DNA from: Mucilaginibacter arboris
GTDB taxonomy: Bacteria; Bacteroidota; Bacteroidia; Sphingobacteriales; Sphingobacteriaceae
DNA length: 64,000 nt
Direction: 5' to 3'
Assembly (NCBI RefSeq): GCF_009754915.1
Contig: NZ_WPIK01000003.1
Coordinates: 124,001 to 188,000 of the forward strand
Shown piece after piece: positions 50,958-63,409 of the stretch. A program made the translations under genes and the position numbers. The notes beneath the pieces were generated by a model. It saw only the letters and a program-made list of their open reading frames with translations, was not told the DNA's origin and did no database searches. The number at the start of each line of letters is the position of its first letter. The stretch's first letter is position 1.

Positions 50958-51905
50958 TTACAAACCTTCCAGCATTTTTTTTAAAACTGCCTGCGCTGCC
51001 CATTCGCGGTTTGCTGCTTCTTTTATCACGATAGAATTTGGTCCGTCCAAAATCTCTGACGATAATTCCAAATCGCGGCGTACCGGTAAACAATGCATTA
51101 TTTTAGCATTATTTGTGTTTTTCAACTTCTCGTTAGTTAGCATCCAGTCTTCGTTTCCCGGAATAACTTTTCCATAAGGTTCAAAAGCCGACCAGTTTTT
51201 TACGTAGATAAAATCAGCATCCTGCAAAGCCTCGTCCTGGTTATGAGTGATAATTGCACCTTGTGTAAATGCTGTAGAAAGTTCCAGCCCGGCAGGATGG
51301 GCGATGGTAAAATCAACATCAGCTTTGCACATCCATTCAGCAAAAGAATTTGGAACAGCTTGCGGCAATGCTTTTACATGTGGCGCCCAGGTTAAAACAA
51401 CTTTCGGGTGAGGTTTGGTTTTCAGTTCTTCAATCGTAATTAAATCTGCCAGACTTTGAAGTGGGTGTCTTGTTGCCGATTCTAAACTCACTACTGGAAC
51501 TCCGCATAATTCCACAAACTTGTTAAAAATAACTTCACCATAATCTTCCTCCCGATCTTTTAAACCTGGGAAGGAGCGAAGGCCCAAAATATCAACATAT
51601 TGCCCCATAACTGCGGCTGCCTCGCGGATATGTTCTACCGTTGCGCCATCCATTTTTACGCCGTCGCGCAACTCCAATGCCCAGCCTTCTTTATCGATAT
51701 TTAAAACCATTACATTCATACCCAAATTCATGGCAGCTTTTTGCGTGCTCATACGGGTGCGTAAGCTTGGGTTCATAAAAACCAAACCAATAGTTTTATT
51801 TTTTCCAAGATGCTGAAAAGCGAAAGGATTTTTTTTGATCTCTAATCCTTCTTTTACCAGTGCATTTATATCGTTGACGTTGTTTACGGAGGAGAAGAGT
51901 TTCAT
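50958..51905 (-). CDS. argF': N-acyl-L-ornithine carbamoyltransferase (N-succinyl or N-acetyl type)
   Basis: This 315-residue transcarbamylase has the carbamoyl phosphate motif NPSLRTRMSTQ and the C-terminal MHCLPVRRD. Its sequence (ATRHPLQSLADLITIEELKT, TWAPHVKALPQAVPNSFAEW) matches the group that acts on N-acetyl- or N-succinyl-ornithine rather than free ornithine. In Bacteroides the succinyl form is known. The Pro in LRSFPGL may favour the succinyl type, but I could not align it. It is the last gene of the arginine operon. A sense repeat word lies in IKEAA (51015-51025). Confidence 0.88.
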   Translation of the reverse strand: MKLFSSVNNVNDINALVKEGLEIKKNPFAFQHLGKNKTIGLVFMNPSLRTRMSTQKAAMNLGMNVMVLNIDKEGWALELRDGVKMDGATVEHIREAAAVMGQYVDILGLRSFPGLKDREEDYGEVIFNKFVELCGVPVVSLESATRHPLQSLADLITIEELKTKPHPKVVLTWAPHVKALPQAVPNSFAEWMCKADVDFTIAHPAGLELSTAFTQGAIITHNQDEALQDADFIYVKNWSAFEPYGKVIPGNEDWMLTNEKLKNTNNAKIMHCLPVRRDLELSSEILDGPNSIVIKEAANREWAAQAVLKKMLEGL

Positions 51906-52073: not shown

Positions 52074-53231
52074 TTACATCGAAGGATTAAACTCAGCAAC
52101 CGGTGCTGTTTTTATAGCCTGACTAAAAGCTTCCAGGAAACGGTCAGCATGTGTTTTAGTCAAGTTTAAAGCAGGCAGCAAACGGATTACATTTGGTTTA
52201 GCTTCGCCGGTAAAAATATGATATTTAAACAAAAGTTCGGCTTTTACATGGGCCAAAGTATCTGGCAAATCAATACCAATCATCAAACCACGACCGCGTA
52301 CTTCTTTTACCTGCTCAAATTTCTTCAGTTCTTCGATTAAGTAACCGCCAATTTCAGCTGCATTTTGCATCAGGTTATCCTGTTCCATTATTTCTAAAAC
52401 CGCTAAGCCTGCTGCACACGCCAAATGGTTGCCGCCAAAAGTAGTCCCCAGCATATAATAAACCGGTTTTATTTTAGGGGAGATGGAGATCCCGCCAATC
52501 GGGAAACCGTTGCCCATTCCTTTGGCCATGGTGTAAATATCAGCATTTACACCGGCAAAATCATGCGAGTAAAATTTGCCCGTACGGCCGTAACCGCACT
52601 GCACAGAATCGGCGATAAAAACAGCATTATATTGGTCGCAAAGCGAACGGATCTTTTGCAGGAAATTTTCCGGGGCAACCTGTATCCCGCCAACGCCCTG
52701 GATGCCTTCTATAATAACCGAACTGATTTCATTGTCAGCAAATGCCTGTTCTAATGCAGTTTCATCCTTCCAGGGAAGGAAAATTACATTGTCGGTTTGG
52801 TTAACCGGCGCCAGAATTTTAGGGTTATCAGTAACGGCAACCGCTAAAGACGTACGGCCGTGAAAAGCTTTTCTAAACGCAATTACTTTCTTTTTACCAT
52901 TATAAAAAGAAGCCAGTTTTAACGCATTTTCATTCGCTTCGGCCCCAGAATTGCATAAAAACAGTTGATAATCTTCTTTGCCTGAAACTTTTCCCAGTTT
53001 TTCAGCAAGTTCAAGCTGAATAGGAATTTCAATAGAATTACTGTAAAAACCCAGCTGATGTAACTGATCTTCTAAGCGTTTAACATAATGCGGATGTGTA
53101 TGTCCGATAGAAATAACAGCATGGCCGCCATATAAATCCAGGTATTCCTGGCCTTTATCGTCCCAAACCAGGCTTCCCTGGCCTTTTACGATATTAATAT
53201 GATTGATTGGGTAAACATCGAATGGTTTCAT
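52074..53231 (-). CDS. argD: Acetylornithine/succinylornithine aminotransferase
   Basis: This 385-residue class III aminotransferase uses PLP to transfer an amino group from glutamate to the acyl-glutamate semialdehyde. LYGGHAVISIGHTHP is at the N-terminus, NSGAEANENALKLA binds the cofactor phosphate, and the PLP Lys is in MAKGMGNGFPIGG. Length is slightly short of the E. coli enzyme but normal for Bacteroidota. It lies in the arginine operon between a four-helix-bundle gene and argF'. Two second-form words lie in its codons (52104, 52616). Confidence 0.92.
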   Translation of the reverse strand: MKPFDVYPINHINIVKGQGSLVWDDKGQEYLDLYGGHAVISIGHTHPHYVKRLEDQLHQLGFYSNSIEIPIQLELAEKLGKVSGKEDYQLFLCNSGAEANENALKLASFYNGKKKVIAFRKAFHGRTSLAVAVTDNPKILAPVNQTDNVIFLPWKDETALEQAFADNEISSVIIEGIQGVGGIQVAPENFLQKIRSLCDQYNAVFIADSVQCGYGRTGKFYSHDFAGVNADIYTMAKGMGNGFPIGGISISPKIKPVYYMLGTTFGGNHLACAAGLAVLEIMEQDNLMQNAAEIGGYLIEELKKFEQVKEVRGRGLMIGIDLPDTLAHVKAELLFKYHIFTGEAKPNVIRLLPALNLTKTHADRFLEAFSQAIKTAPVAEFNPSM

Positions 53232-53674: not shown

Positions 53675-53714
53675 ACCTTTCACCTTTCAGCCTTTCACCT
53701 TTCCGCCTTTCCCC
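53675..53714. repeat. Short tandem repeat between argC and the inserted gene
   Basis: The motif CCTTTCACCTTTCAG recurs in slightly changed form (CCTTTCACCTTTCCG, CCTTTCCCC). It ends at the argC stop codon. Confidence 0.6.
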
Positions 53715-54718
53715 TAAAATGCGTTAGCTTTCAGTTTAAGTCCTGCCGTTTCTTCCAGGCCGAACATTAAATTCATGTTTTGAACTGCTTGTCCGGATGC
53801 TCCTTTGAGTAGGTTATCCATGATACTGATAACGAAAATTTTGTTGCCGTGTTTTTTAATTTGGATGAAGCATTTGTTGGTATTTACTACCTGTTTCAAA
53901 TCAATATCACGGGTAGTAACATGCGTAAACGGATGTTCAGCGTAAAAATTAGTGTACATTGCTAAAGCTTCTTCCTCACTTAAATCACATTCTGTGTAAA
54001 TGGAAGCTAAAATGCCGCGCGTAAAATCTCCGCGATAAGGAATGAAATTGAGCTTGTTTTTATCTCCCGGATAAATTGGAAAATCATTTTGCAGCTGGTT
54101 AAGCGATTGGCTGATTTCCTTTAAATGCTGATGATTGAATGCTTTGTAAACGGATAAATTATCATTTCGCCAGGTAAAATGAGAAGTAGGGGACAAGCTT
54201 TGTCCGGCGCCTGTTGAGCCTGTTGTTGCAGCAATATGTACTTCGTTTAGCAACAAATTTTTAGCTGCTAAAGGAAGCAGGCCTAACTGAATGCAAGTGG
54301 CAAAACAACCTGGGTTAGCAATGTTGGATGCTTCTTTTATCGATGTTTTATTGAGTTCTGGTAAGCCGTAGATGAAGGTTCGAGGTTTGAGGTTCGAGGT
54401 GCCAGTCAACCTAAAATCCTGACTTAAATCGATAATTCTAATGTAATTGGCGATTGGATTTGCTTCCAGAAATTTCTGTGCATCACCATGTCCTACACAT
54501 AAAAACAAAACATCGATACCATCAGATAATTCGCTGCTAAATTTCAATTCTGTATCACCAAAAAGATCGGTATGGACTTCATACAAATAATTACCAGCGT
54601 TGCTTTTGCTGTTTACAAAAGCAATTTCTACGTTTGGATGGTTAAGCAAAACCCTTAACATCTCGCCGCCTGTATATCCTGCGCCGCCTATAATTCCGGC
54701 TTTAATTTTATTCGACAT
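53714..54718 (-). CDS. argC: N-acetyl-gamma-glutamyl-phosphate reductase
   Basis: ArgC reduces the acylated glutamyl phosphate to the semialdehyde with NADPH. From the ATG at 54716-54718 it has 334 residues, beginning MSNKIKAGIIGGAGYTGGEM. The catalytic Cys is in ANPGCFAT and HQHLKEI holds the conserved His region. The start overlaps the cupin gene's end by 11 bases. The codons for GTSNLKPRTF (54378-54402) consist of a GAGGTT-rich simple repeat, and SIKEAS is encoded by a repeat word (54328-54339), both unusual inside a core gene. Confidence 0.92.
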   Translation of the reverse strand: MSNKIKAGIIGGAGYTGGEMLRVLLNHPNVEIAFVNSKSNAGNYLYEVHTDLFGDTELKFSSELSDGIDVLFLCVGHGDAQKFLEANPIANYIRIIDLSQDFRLTGTSNLKPRTFIYGLPELNKTSIKEASNIANPGCFATCIQLGLLPLAAKNLLLNEVHIAATTGSTGAGQSLSPTSHFTWRNDNLSVYKAFNHQHLKEISQSLNQLQNDFPIYPGDKNKLNFIPYRGDFTRGILASIYTECDLSEEEALAMYTNFYAEHPFTHVTTRDIDLKQVVNTNKCFIQIKKHGNKIFVISIMDNLLKGASGQAVQNMNLMFGLEETAGLKLKANAF

Positions 54719-55061
54719 CGATCCTGTCATTTTTATTGGAAGGATTGGAATACAAGATAAATTCCAGATCAACTTCTCCCAAATTGCTTATATAATGTTT
54801 TTGCCCGGCTTTAATTTCTATTCCTTGTCTTGGATTTAAAACTTCCTGTTTCCCGTCGATGAAAAAAGTAGCGCGGCCAATTAAAATAAAAAAGAACTGG
54901 GTTGCTTTTTCGTGGTAATGCAATTTTTCGGAAGTGTTTGGCGGCATCAACTCCTGTTTAATAGAAATTGCATCGTCATCAATAAAGGTCCAACCATAGC
55001 AATCATCGCCCCACTGGTAATGTTCAATACAATTAGATTTCGAAAAGATAGAATTTTCCAT
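54708..55061 (-). CDS. Cupin-domain protein within the arginine operon
   Basis: This 117-residue protein is a single cupin fold: LHYHEKATQFFFILIGRATF (metal His residues and Glu-like position), then NPRQGIEIKAGQKHYISNLG with the second motif. It may bind a small ligand or metal; the catalytic role is unknown. The gene lies between argG and argC and overlaps argC by 11 bases. One repeat word supplies both its start codon context and the argG stop. Confidence 0.75.
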   Translation of the reverse strand: MENSIFSKSNCIEHYQWGDDCYGWTFIDDDAISIKQELMPPNTSEKLHYHEKATQFFFILIGRATFFIDGKQEVLNPRQGIEIKAGQKHYISNLGEVDLEFILYSNPSNKNDRIDVE

Positions 55062-55071
55062 GCTTCTTTTA
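55060..55071 (-). repeat. Repeat word joining the argG stop and cupin start
   Basis: On the minus strand the word reads TAAAAGAAGCAT followed by G: the first three bases are the argG stop codon, and the last two plus the next base are the cupin gene's ATG. The whole intergenic link is the word itself. Confidence 0.75.
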
Positions 55072-56259
55072 TCCGTTAACTTTGTGATAAATCACTACCT
55101 GGTTACCGAAAATTTTCGAAAATCCTTTTACATCTTCACCCGTCCAGGTATTGTTCATTTCGCCATAGCTGCCAAATTTGTTAGACATCAAGTCATGTGC
55201 AGATTCAATCCCCAAAACCTGGAAACGGTAAGGATACAATTGTACAAACACTTTCCCGGATACGTTTTGCTGTATATTCGTCAAAAAAGCTTCGATGTTG
55301 CGCATAACCGGATCATGGAACTGGCCTTCGTGCAGCCAGTTGCCATAAAAAGAAGAAAGCTGATCTTTCCAGCTCAGCTGCCATTTGGTTAAAGTGTGTT
55401 TTTCTAAAGTATGGTGCGCTTTGATGATTACCATGGGTGCAGCCGCTTCAAAACCAACGCGACCTTTAATACCGATAATGGTATCGCCAACATGAATATC
55501 GCGGCCAATGGCATAAGGCGAAGCGATTTCCTGTAATTTCTGGATAGCTTTGGTTGGATGATCAAAGGTTTCATCATTGATCGCAATCAGTTCGCCTTGT
55601 TTAAACTCCAGCGTTACTTTTTCTGAACCTTCTTTAGTTAATTGTGTTGGCCAGGCATCATCAGGCAAACCTTCGTGAGAAGTTAAGGTTTCTTTTCCGC
55701 CCACAGATGTTCCCCAGATCCCTTTATTAATCGAATATTTCGCTTTTTCGAAATTCATTTCTACGCCATGCTCTTTCAGGTATTTGATCTCTTCTTCGCG
55801 GCTTAATTTTAAATCGCGGATAGGCGTCAGTATTTTGACTTCCGGGATGATAATGTTAAAGATCATATCAAACCGGACCTGATCGTTACCCGCTCCGGTA
55901 CTGCCATGTGCAACATATTCTGCACCTATTTTTTTGGCATATAAAGCAATTGCGGTAGCCTGGCTCACGCGTTCTGCACTTACAGAAAGCGGATAAGTAT
56001 TATTTTTTAATACGTTTCCATAAATCAGATAGCGTACACAGGTATTGTAAAAGTTTTCTGTTTCATCAACCACTGCGTGTGATGTAACGCCCATTTTATA
56101 AGCGCGGCGTTCTACATCTGCTAATTCTTCAGCACTAAAACCGCCAGTATTTACAATTACAGAATGGACTTCCAGGTTCAAATCCTGCGATAAATAAATA
56201 CTGCAAAACGAAGTATCCAAACCTCCGCTAAAAGCTAAAACTACTTTTTCTTTCATCAA
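55069..56259 (-). CDS. argG: Argininosuccinate synthase
   Basis: ArgG joins citrulline and aspartate using ATP. The 396-residue protein has the P-loop-like LAFSGGLDTSFCSIYL (8-23) and the substrate segment AHGSTGAGNDQVRFD. In organisms with N-acyl-ornithine carbamoyltransferase an acyl-citrulline deacylase acts before this step; no such gene is in the window. The second Met (MKEKVV) could be the start. argG is the second gene of the operon, following the GNAT gene. Confidence 0.94.
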   Translation of the reverse strand: MMKEKVVLAFSGGLDTSFCSIYLSQDLNLEVHSVIVNTGGFSAEELADVERRAYKMGVTSHAVVDETENFYNTCVRYLIYGNVLKNNTYPLSVSAERVSQATAIALYAKKIGAEYVAHGSTGAGNDQVRFDMIFNIIIPEVKILTPIRDLKLSREEEIKYLKEHGVEMNFEKAKYSINKGIWGTSVGGKETLTSHEGLPDDAWPTQLTKEGSEKVTLEFKQGELIAINDETFDHPTKAIQKLQEIASPYAIGRDIHVGDTIIGIKGRVGFEAAAPMVIIKAHHTLEKHTLTKWQLSWKDQLSSFYGNWLHEGQFHDPVMRNIEAFLTNIQQNVSGKVFVQLYPYRFQVLGIESAHDLMSNKFGSYGEMNNTWTGEDVKGFSKIFGNQVVIYHKVNG

Positions 56260-56289: not shown

Positions 56290-56970
56290 TTAAAGGCCGA
56301 TATACTGTGCTATTGCCAAACCCAAAAGTGCTATAATTTTGGTAGATTTTTTTATTGCATTTTCAATTCGCTCCAGCAAAGTAGCTTTATGGGTAAGTTT
56401 TTTCATCTTTTCCTCAATCTCTTTGGCCTTTTCTTCGGGATCAAAAAGCATGGCTGTGCACATGCAGTTTTTGCGTTCTTTGCTCATTAAAATATCGTAA
56501 TTAACACAGCTTTTGCAACCTTGCCAAAAAGCATCGTCCTGTGTTAGTTCTGAATAGGTTACGGGTTCGTAACCTAATTCAGAATTAATTTTCATCACTG
56601 CCAAACCTGTAGTTAAACCAAAAATTTTGGCATCAGGATATTTTTTTCGGGATAATTTAAAAACTTCATGCTTGATAGCTTTTGCCAAACCAACTTTACG
56701 AAAAATCGGATTAACAATTAAACCGGAATTAGCTACAAATTGCCCGTGGCTCCAGGTTTCAATATAGCAAAAACCCGCCCATGTGCCATCTTTATAAAGT
56801 GCAATTACAGCTTTGCCTTCCAGCATTTTGTTGGCTACATATTCTGGCGAACGTTTGGCAATACCTGTACCGCGGGCTTTGGCAGATTCGGCCATTTCAT
56901 CGCAAATCTGCGGCGCATATTCTGCATGTTCTGCAGATGCTATTATTATTTTAAAATCTTGAATTGTCAT
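56290..56970 (-). CDS. GNAT-family N-acetyltransferase, first gene of arginine operon
   Basis: From the ATG at 56968-56970 the protein has 226 residues. A GNAT fold covers about 1-150 (SGLIVNPIFRKVGLAKAIKH holds the acyl-CoA loop). The tail contains Cys clusters (WQGCKSCVNYD, KNCMCTAM), a charged coiled-coil-like stretch and a terminal hydrophobic segment (IIALLGLAIAQYIGL). Its place at the head of the arginine operon makes it the candidate for the missing acylglutamate synthase step. That assignment is inferred from context. The Cys-rich tail and possible membrane anchor are not usual for ArgA. Confidence 0.75.
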   Translation of the reverse strand: MTIQDFKIIIASAEHAEYAPQICDEMAESAKARGTGIAKRSPEYVANKMLEGKAVIALYKDGTWAGFCYIETWSHGQFVANSGLIVNPIFRKVGLAKAIKHEVFKLSRKKYPDAKIFGLTTGLAVMKINSELGYEPVTYSELTQDDAFWQGCKSCVNYDILMSKERKNCMCTAMLFDPEEKAKEIEEKMKKLTHKATLLERIENAIKKSTKIIALLGLAIAQYIGL

Positions 56971-57012
56971 GGAGAAATACAATTATTTCCGTTAGATAAA
57001 AGGGATTTAATA

Positions 57013-57057
57013 CCGGAAGGAATCGTAAAAAAGACAATAATAAATACCTTCCCCCGG
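57013..57057 (-). promoter_or_regulatory. Candidate attenuator hairpin of the arginine operon
   Basis: On the minus strand CCGGGGGAAGG (57057 down to 57047) can pair with CCTTCCGG (57020 down to 57013), leaving two bulged G. It lies between the Arg-rich leader ORF and the first structural gene. The T-rich part after the stem is broken (TATTAAATCCCTTTTA), so its strength as a terminator is uncertain. Confidence 0.4.
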
Positions 57058-57086
57058 CGCAGCAACTAAGAATAAATTTAATTAAT

Positions 57087-57215
57087 TCAAAGTCTGGAAA
57101 TAAAAAACCGTCGTCGTGCTAATGAGAAGAACCCGGTGGAAACCAAAACTAACGCAGATGCAACCGGAGCAATAACTGCTCGGACAGTAGGCATAAAAAA
57201 GCGTTGTTGTTTCAT
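57087..57215 (-). CDS. Probable Arg-rich leader peptide of the arginine operon
   Basis: An ATG at 57213-57215 opens a 42-codon frame, MKQQRFFMPTVRAVIAPVAS, then ALVLVSTGFFSLARRRFFIS and RL. Three Arg codons in a row (CGA CGA CGG, 57108-57116) lie near its end, with three further Arg codons elsewhere. It precedes the arginine operon by about 115 bases, with a hairpin in between. This is the arrangement of a transcription attenuator in which stalling at Arg codons changes RNA folding. The hydrophobic middle also allows a small membrane protein as an alternative. Confidence 0.65.
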   Translation of the reverse strand: MKQQRFFMPTVRAVIAPVASALVLVSTGFFSLARRRFFISRL

Positions 57216-57291
57216 TATTTGTCTAATTTAAACTTACTTAGAAAATGGTGCAATTATCGTATAATTTTTTTGATTATACTATGTAGATTTT

Positions 57292-57327
57292 CAAAAGTTA
57301 CAGTATAGACAGATTTTTTTGGAACAA
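57292..57327 (-). promoter_or_regulatory. Possible promoter of the arginine leader and operon
   Basis: On the minus strand TTG (57327-57325) and TAACTTTTG (57300-57292) resemble the Bacteroidota boxes with about 24 bases between them, slightly long. The leader ATG is 77 bases further. Confidence 0.35.
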
Positions 57328-57360
57328 GTTTAATTTTTGTTCGTAAAAATTAAAAAAGTT

Positions 57361-57398: not shown

Positions 57399-57989
57399 AT
57401 GTTACCTGCACAGTATTTGTTCGACATTGAGCCTTACACCAAAATAAACAAAAGGGATTATCTGCTGATTATCCCGCCGGACCGTGATGTTGTTTCGAAA
57501 ATTATGTACTTTAAGTTAAAAGCATGGGAAATGATTGGTGCATATCCATCGCTTCATAGTACTGCGCATATTACCATCAATCATGATTATAATATTTATG
57601 CATCTGTTTTTGAAGAAAAATTAACTTATTACCGCCGGAAGGTATCTTTTATAAATACTTTTGAAGTGAAAATTTCTGGCTTTGATAAATTTCAGCACGG
57701 CGATACTTATACTATTTATGCCAAGGTTGAAGTTAGTGCCGCAATAAAAGAAACCCTTTCTAAATTTAACAAAACCTTTTCTAAAGGCGTGGTTAAAACC
57801 CCGCATATTACCATCGCTAAAACAATTACAAAAGAAAAATTTGAAATCCTTTGGAAATATTTTGAACATTTAAATTTTGAATACTCCTTTTATCCCGATA
57901 AAATCAGGGTTTTAGAAACGCCTACACGCCGGTTTTTTAACCAGCCGATGAAAATGAAAACCGAATTAAAACTTAAACAGGTAGGTTAA
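57399..57989 (+). CDS. 2H phosphoesterase / 2'-5' RNA ligase-like protein
   Basis: This 196-residue protein has two HxT-type motifs, HITI in STAHITINHD and HITI in KTPHITIAKT, which define the 2H phosphoesterase superfamily (2'-5' RNA ligase, LigT, CPDase). The two His residues lie about 80 residues apart as expected. It acts on cyclic phosphates or RNA ends in other organisms; its own substrate is unknown. The gene is divergent from the arginine leader and precedes the SRP RNA gene. Confidence 0.75.
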   Translation: MLPAQYLFDIEPYTKINKRDYLLIIPPDRDVVSKIMYFKLKAWEMIGAYPSLHSTAHITINHDYNIYASVFEEKLTYYRRKVSFINTFEVKISGFDKFQHGDTYTIYAKVEVSAAIKETLSKFNKTFSKGVVKTPHITIAKTITKEKFEILWKYFEHLNFEYSFYPDKIRVLETPTRRFFNQPMKMKTELKLKQVG

Positions 57990-58033: not shown

Positions 58034-58041
58034 TACTTTTG
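58034..58041 (+). promoter_or_regulatory. -7 box of the SRP RNA gene
   Basis: TACTTTTG lies directly at the 5' side of the SRP RNA. A -33 TTG at the right distance is not seen. Confidence 0.45.
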
Positions 58042-58143
58042 TGGCGGGTAAGTCTTTTACGACCAGCTCCTCTTGAACTCCCCCAGGGTGGGAACGCAGC
58101 AAGGGTAGAGAGTTGTAGCGGTGCGATAGAAGTAGCTTACCCA
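58041..58143 (+). ncRNA. ffs: Signal recognition particle RNA, small bacterial type
   Basis: The sequence has the conserved SRP RNA tip: CCCCCAGGGTGGGAACGCAG followed by CAAGGGTAG (about 58079-58107), with the two asymmetric loops that Ffh binds. GTGGCGGGTAAG at the 5' end pairs with CTTACCCAC at the 3' end to close the stem. The length, near 100 bases, fits the small SRP RNA. The RNA works with Ffh and FtsY to bring membrane proteins to the translocon. Ends are estimated from the closing stem. Confidence 0.9.
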
Positions 58144-58175
58144 CTTTTTCTTTTAAAACACTTGTTTTTTTATAC

Positions 58176-63334: not shown

Positions 63335-63409
63335 GGCCCGTTCGTCTAGGGGTTAGGACGTTAGATTTTCATTCTAGAAACAGGGGTTCGATTCCCCTAC
63401 GGGCTACCA
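63335..63409 (+). tRNA. tRNA-Glu (anticodon TTC)
   Basis: The cloverleaf is complete: acceptor stem GGCCCGT with ACGGGCT (one G-U pair), D arm GTCTAGGGGTTAGGAC, anticodon stem TTAGA/TCTAG with loop TTTTCAT (anticodon TTC, 63368-63370) and T arm AGGGGTTCGATTCCCCT. The 3' CCA is encoded (63407-63409). A hairpin terminator follows. Confidence 0.95.

Follow-up and report, generated by a model that had tools for sequence, protein, structure and literature searches.

Does the short reading frame that stands ahead of the arginine operon in this DNA control the operon, and if it does, what would it sense? In the His, Leu and Trp attenuators a short translated ORF with codons for the end product is located just before the biosynthetic operon and acts in cis. 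In the 64,000-nucleotide stretch analysed here (the window), a 42-codon frame with CGA CGA CGG ahead of the arginine operon had been pointed out in the earlier note, and we confirmed it on the minus strand (Table 1).

Table 1. Leader, operon and predicted RNA features, in positions of the window
Feature	Position	Strand	Basis or remark
AT-rich block upstream of leader, candidate promoter and 5' end of leader RNA	57216..57300	-	inferred
Leader ORF MKQQRFFMPTVRAVIAPVASALVLVSTGFFSLARRRFFISRL, 42 codons, stop TGA	57087..57215	-	ORF list; conserved in relatives
Arg codons CGA CGA CGG (codons 34-36), proposed stall site	57108..57116	-	first two are the cross-genus tandem CGA CGA
Second-last codon Arg (AGA) and last codon CTT	57090..57095	-	in relatives Arg retained, its codon variable
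Predicted hairpin in the leader-to-gene interval, stem GCCGGGGGAAGG / CCTTCCGGT	about 57012..57058	-	fold
Small predicted hairpin GGAAATA/TATTTCT immediately 5' of the first gene's ATG	56973..56990	-	fold
First operon gene, GNAT family, probable argA2 (N-acylglutamate synthase)	56290..56970	-	family and operon position; ATG at 56970
argG	55069..56259	-	profile match
Cupin-domain gene between argG and argC	54708..55061	-	profile match
argC	53714..54772	-	profile match; listed TTG start maybe too far upstream
argD-type aminotransferase	52074..53231	-	best model scores under its curated cut-off
argF-type carbamoyltransferase (acetyl/succinylornithine)	50958..51905	-	best model scores under its curated cut-off

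The leader, its operon and its relatives

The operon reads GNAT gene (probable argA2)-argG-cupin-argC-argD-argF on the same strand as the leader. The genes adjoining the leader make arginine, as argG, argC and the argD- and argF-type genes are all present in the window. The first gene gave no match in Pfam or NCBIfam at E 0.001, and the best PDB relative of its GNAT-like product was found at E 2.5e-6. In the accessible text of PMC7311316 and PMC9026213, a GNAT-family enzyme (BT3761, ArgA2) is described as the missing first enzyme of Bacteroidetes arginine synthesis. Going by family and operon position, our gene probably encodes an ArgA2-type enzyme.

Upstream of the leader lies a divergent gene for a 2'-5' RNA ligase superfamily protein (57399-57989, plus strand; Pfam PF13563). 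The plus strand also carries a Bacteroidales small SRP RNA gene (58039-58146; Rfam RF04183) and a tRNA-Glu (TTC) gene (63335-63409), followed from 63582 by ORFs whose translations resemble, by eye, an insertion-sequence transposase.

A promoter-like pair had been proposed in front of the leader. By scan we found no sigma-70 pair just upstream of the ORF, the sigma-70 consensus being unsuited to this phylum, but the AT-rich block in this place looks conserved, since by eye it is similar across three members of the window's genus.

The leader peptide was found in both other genomes of the window's genus, with 71 and 79% identity. Using the first gene (GNAT) as an anchor, we obtained matches in 103 of 121 family genomes, covering 20 of 25 genera, and examined 90 of the 103 loci, to which the leader counts refer; many of the 18 genomes without a first-gene match are small. 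All 90 operon-anchored loci, from 20 Sphingobacteriaceae genera, have a leader with the Arg ending. In 88 of them it starts with ATG and has 28-50 codons; in the other two (L095 and L137) a 44-codon frame with the same ending starts with GTG. Since the ending patterns were composed after inspecting the sequences, we ran two controls. The same leader rule found nothing on the opposite strand (0/90) and, on 20 shuffles, a mean of 0.55 and at most 2 of 90 loci. The strictest form of the ending pattern matched 69 of the 90.

A second set of 80 loci, which shares some genomes with the 90, gave 78 matches; the misses were L243 and L256, the latter including merely 150 bases upstream. When 351 family genomes were searched with the peptide at E up to 1, 125 had matches and 226 had none, which is not taken as prevalence because matches at E of about 1 are mostly chance and the other genera share only the ending. 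This search, with the leader as its sole query, supplied 30 loci for inspection: 29 are leaders with the argG motif GGLDTS on the same strand, and L023 proved not to be one. Outside the family, 11 of 13 loci (Myroides, Chitinophagales, a Saprospiraceae MAG and further MAGs) have a leader with other Arg endings: those of Myroides resemble SRSSRSRA, and those of Chitinophagales and the Saprospiraceae MAG end in Arg-Arg-stop.

Peptide ending and arginine codons of the leader

Among 174 distinct leaders, the other two frames are open in just 2 and 30 cases, frame 0 having been picked for its openness. In the Mucilaginibacter-type leaders third codon positions vary most, and a simple count over 182 close pairs gave a dN/dS of about 0.5. 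The leader appears to be a conserved ORF of coding type, and its translation is predicted.

We compared 24 representatives from 20 genera and 4 outgroups. Mean identity is 10% over the 28 residues that follow Met and 38% over the last 12; Arg makes up 83 of 288 residues in the last 12 positions versus 22 of 672 in the earlier ones. The leaders of these representatives have 33-46 codons and 14 of the 24 have exactly 44, despite N-termini that are unrelated between genera. In the whole set of 174, the length is 44 codons in 92 and 41 codons in 44. The second-last codon is Arg in 160 of 161 distinct leaders, with a preceding Pro in 136, counts that are partly built in, since most forms of the pattern demand Arg or Gln in that position. 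Mucilaginibacter leaders retain the Pro in 41 of 45 and the second-last Arg in 45 of 45 with variable codons, and share with the window's genus a conserved mid-peptide RAxxAPVAxAL. No Pfam match to the leader peptide was obtained at E 0.001. The last sense codon mostly ends in T (GTT, GCT, ATT, CTT, TTT, CGT), and the stop is TGA in 119 of the 174.

Two adjacent Arg near the end occur in 69 distinct operon-anchored leaders from 17 genera, and 68 of these encode the pair as CGA CGA. The lone exception, L079, is the sole locus of genus g12 and reads CGA CGG. At the remaining Arg positions of these tandem-bearing leaders, CGA was used in 22 of 188 cases. With all leaders that have the tandem, the count is 132/133, or 115/116 when 20 Sphingobacterium loci (L151-L170), which had been fetched by a pattern containing CGACGACC, are taken out. 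The two GTG-start leaders, which stand outside the tandem counts, both have CGA CGA. Of the 174 distinct leaders, 41, among them those of Pedobacter, Myroides and Chitinophagales, have no such pair in the counted place.

The 45 Mucilaginibacter-type leaders have CGA CGA throughout. Their third Arg is AGG in 28, CGA in 10, CGG in 4 and AGA in 3, and their second-last Arg is CGG in 31, AGG in 10, AGA in 3, CGC in 1 and CGA in none. Pedobacter has no tandem CGA; its leaders carry a single CGG (24/24) and an Arg ahead of the last codon. Chitinophagales leaders end in CGA followed by CGT or CGC, that of the Saprospiraceae MAG in CGA followed by CGA, and the Myroides Arg codons are CGG and CGC. The Arg codons are conserved, but the Arg-Arg-Arg motif seen by the earlier note is not the core, which is CGA CGA together with the second-last Arg.

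In 30 window ORFs longer than 250 aa, no Arg codon is less frequent than CGA (27 of 433, or 6%). Among all 38 tRNA genes found in the draft genome, the Arg anticodons are ACG, CCG, CCT and TCT, and with this set CGA is expected to be decoded by the inosine tRNA alone. As reported in the accessible text of the cited papers, inosine tRNA-Arg decodes CGU, CGC and CGA (PMC3711424, PMC10454642), CGA is decoded poorly relative to CGU and CGC (PMC4046918), an Arg-Arg pair that includes CGA, AGA or AGG has a strong relieving effect on attenuation in the Salmonella his leader (PMC4046918), and CGA-CGA pairs are inhibitory in yeast (PMC6301793). A near-invariant CGA CGA inside an Arg leader fits a stall site. 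Since the constraint acts on the codon, the sensor would be decoding rather than the peptide.

RNA between the leader and the first gene

The earlier note had placed a hairpin after the leader. A stem after the leader is predicted in the window (Table 1), but the leader-to-gene interval is no more stable than its shuffles in the three members of the window's genus (z -0.2, -0.84 and +0.82), and the whole leader RNA of the window gave z -0.40. Terminator-like hairpins between leader and gene were found in 0 of 3 members (0.5 expected), and a separate scan of this interval in the window found none. What stands of the attenuator claim is, by comparison, the Arg leader before arginine genes; no terminator hairpin was found for it here, and the downstream RNA differs among lineages. 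No Rfam cis-regulatory element matched at gathering score in the window or in the loci of 20 relatives. The output in the window's genus may act on translation of the first gene or through termination by Rho.

The GGAAATA/TATTTCT hairpin before the ATG is predicted for two of the three members. Within it, GGAAATAA has an alternative partner in the leader at 57103-57096 (TTATTTCC), with 8 bases perfect in the window. Shuffles paired as well in 50 of 1000 cases for the window and in 279 and 878 of 1000 for the relatives. We do not claim this pairing, because shuffles do as well and the relatives are far from significance.

For Mucilaginibacter-type leaders, 36 leader-to-gene regions were put forward and 34 were distinct (loci L004-L030 are not in this set); their consensus fold had no pairs, which is weak evidence of absence since the alignment is poor. 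Terminator-like hairpins occurred in 1 of 13 Mucilaginibacter loci versus 0.8 expected, and in none of 13 Pedobacter and 9 Parapedobacter loci.

In Sphingobacterium we found a long-range helix in which the second CGA and the Pro codon pair with a TRGGTCG block about 20 bases 5' of the first ATG. Within this helix lie three hairpins: one at the stop codon, a second, and a small one followed by a T-rich stretch. The alignment (A4) held 35 sequences; L169 was dropped as its gene start was not located, and 29 distinct sequences were used. In 16 of these 29 the uniformity of CGACGACC and of TGCC reflects selection by the fetching pattern. The cells of the structure were paired in 92.9% versus 86.7% after shuffling, with a covariation of 0.260 versus 0.143, and none of 500 shuffles, which leave the kinship of the sequences in place, reached either value. 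Twelve pairs changed on both sides versus 7.8 in shuffles, and slid versions of the structure were 34-42% paired. Most of the covariation sits in the hairpins, the long-range helix having a double change in one pair. The loop GAGCT of the stop-codon hairpin complements the loop AGCTC of the next hairpin (93.1% of cells paired), and the two loops could possibly form a kissing interaction.

Seven of 9 Parapedobacter loci also have the long-range helix, with 7-8 bases, and 3 of 4 g15 loci and the lone g19 locus have it with 6 bases. This recurrence is its main support, because for single sequences 36 to 143 of 1000 shuffles were equally good.

Five other genera have terminator-like hairpins no more than 40 bases from the first gene in 8 of 12 loci (g2 2/2, g6 1/3, g11 2/2, g12 1/1, g20 2/4); chance would give 0.1-0.2 per genus over the whole leader-to-gene interval. 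The 24 sequences of this wider group (alignment A5, without L088, which bears another structure) have two helices in common, with 95.7% of cells paired versus 93.7% shuffled and 3 of 10 pairs changed on both sides. Daejeonella has hairpins at the same alignment place, and 0 of 5 score as terminator-like within 40 bases because they have too few G-C pairs or an overlong loop for the rule. The predicted output looks lineage-specific, with the long-range helix in Sphingobacterium and Parapedobacter and terminator-like hairpins in several other genera.

Probable arginine sensing where no ArgR was found

We looked for ArgR in 37 family genomes and 23 from other families of the class and found it in none of the 60; the same search was positive in 9 of 14 controls, Bacteroides ihuae included. 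This fits the earlier remark that an Arg leader departs from the usual ArgR route. In the same genome, a His leader peptide, MKKYFIYLHHHHHSTQV, precedes hisG and ends about 53 nt ahead of the likely TTG start; no obvious GC-rich hairpin was seen by eye between the two. Its position suggests that leader peptides are in use for amino-acid operons in this genome.

By comparison of the loci we showed a conserved coding-type ORF with conserved Arg residues, a near-invariant CGA CGA and a tie to the arginine operon, in genomes in which no ArgR was found. We infer that the leader is translated and stalls the ribosome, and that starvation turns the operon on through an output in the RNA behind it. We put at about 0.7 the probability that the leader is a cis-acting sensor of arginine starvation, that is, leader-peptide attenuation with a lineage-specific output. 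A ribosome would translate the leader ORF first. When arginyl-tRNA is short, it would halt at CGA CGA, codons left to the inosine tRNA alone with its weak wobble pair. Parked on the leader end, the ribosome would keep the downstream RNA from its OFF form, and argA2-argG-cupin-argC-argD-argF would be expressed. With plentiful arginine it would finish the leader and depart, and the OFF form would silence the operon. Since the 5' strand of the Sphingobacterium helix begins at the second CGA, this strand should be hidden under a ribosome that has halted at the pair.

Some of our observations speak against such a starvation sensor. The window's genus has no terminator-like hairpin, the TTATTTCC/GGAAATAA pairing is not significant, Mucilaginibacter has no consensus structure and Pedobacter has no tandem CGA; moreover, the amino-acid-level conservation of Pro-Arg-X-stop is unneeded in a pure tRNA-starvation model. 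Fungal AAP and bacterial SpeFL sense a free ligand via the nascent peptide, and TnaC likewise arrests for its ligand. Like our leader, AAP and SpeFL (for speF, PMC6386406) involve a short ORF or a leader RNA upstream of genes and have a link to the metabolism of arginine or ornithine, and the conserved Pro-Arg-X-stop is compatible with an arrest peptide of the AAP or SpeFL kind. Free arginine would then hold a ribosome with the finished leader (Pro-Arg-X-stop or Arg-Arg-stop) at the stop codon. The second-last Arg (160/161) and the Pro before it (136/161), both partly built in by the pattern, their retention in Mucilaginibacter while the codons vary, and the precise length of 44 codons in 92 of 174 leaders all agree with this. 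However, the main constraint here falls on a rare Arg codon pair that a peptide sensor would not need, the N-termini are unconserved between genera, and an arginine-dependent arrest would need to repress a biosynthetic operon. We regard arrest by the nascent peptide as unlikely.

A classical attenuator in the window, with terminator and antiterminator hairpins as in his and trp, would be a subform of starvation sensing with the same sensor. The terminator-like hairpins in 8 of 12 loci of the five genera and the two helices kept in the 24 wider-group sequences speak for this form, but such hairpins were not found in the window's genus, Pedobacter and Parapedobacter, and are at chance level in Mucilaginibacter and unscored in Daejeonella within 40 bases, which leaves it a doubtful possibility for the window. 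It is very unlikely that CGACGA and the hairpins act purely as an RNA element, binding for example a protein or a ligand, with an incidental reading frame: the multi-helix structure of Sphingobacterium with its loop-loop pairing would suit such an element, but amino-acid changes are selected against, the frame is kept open, and Mucilaginibacter combines an invariant CGA CGA with no consensus structure. That the ORF encodes a small protein with a function of its own, which the RAxxAPVAxAL of the window's genus and Mucilaginibacter could indicate, is highly improbable, as leaders of different genera show no relationship over their N-terminal two thirds (10% identity) and no Pfam family matched.

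Starvation sensing by the CGA pair could be extended into a broader model of arginine control that is widespread in ArgR-less Bacteroidota. Here CGA CGA, with its I-A wobble, would be a hair-trigger stall and Pro-Arg-X-stop a checkpoint six codons on, so that the leader would respond to termination as well as to tRNA charging. By stalling, the ribosome would open a helix that otherwise closes the start of the first gene, in an RNA that lacks Shine-Dalgarno signals. We offer this tentatively and consider it unlikely as a whole.

With the His, Leu and Trp leaders our leader shares the cis-acting short ORF with end-product codons before the operon; it differs in the amino acid, arginine, in the near-invariant CGA CGA, in the leader length of 33-46 codons among the 24 representatives, and in that no terminator was found in the window's genus. 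In the same phylum, the same kind of control, leader-peptide attenuation before amino-acid biosynthesis operons, was inferred for Flavobacterium psychrophilum; the accessible main text of that paper names no arginine leader and brings in arginine only with cyanophycin, and its supplementary element list could hold one (PMC9723704). With ArgR repression our leader has the target pathway and the expected logic in common, but here the control would lie in a cis leader. A T-box contacts the tRNA itself and works without a leader ORF; what both would have in common is that tRNA charging controls arginine genes at the RNA level, but no Rfam match was found here. According to the accessible text of PMC1262725, arginine operons in Actinobacteria have no conserved RNA structures upstream, and arginine T-boxes occur elsewhere. 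Among the open-access papers searched, mostly by title and the start of the abstract, we found none on an arginine leader for a bacterial arginine biosynthesis operon. Leader-peptide control of amino-acid operons is of a known kind; the near-invariant codon pair read by inosine and the apparent stand-in for ArgR would be new.

At its small size, the leader ORF would escape gene finders that apply a length cut-off. If our reading is true, arginine synthesis across a large environmental branch of Bacteroidota is governed by a cis leader with a rare-codon-pair trigger and not by the textbook repressor, which would explain how the pathway is regulated in lineages without ArgR. The leader would also offer a natural system in which to study how inefficiently inosine decodes adenine. 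Since related genera differ in their downstream structures, one sensor would have been wired to different outputs.
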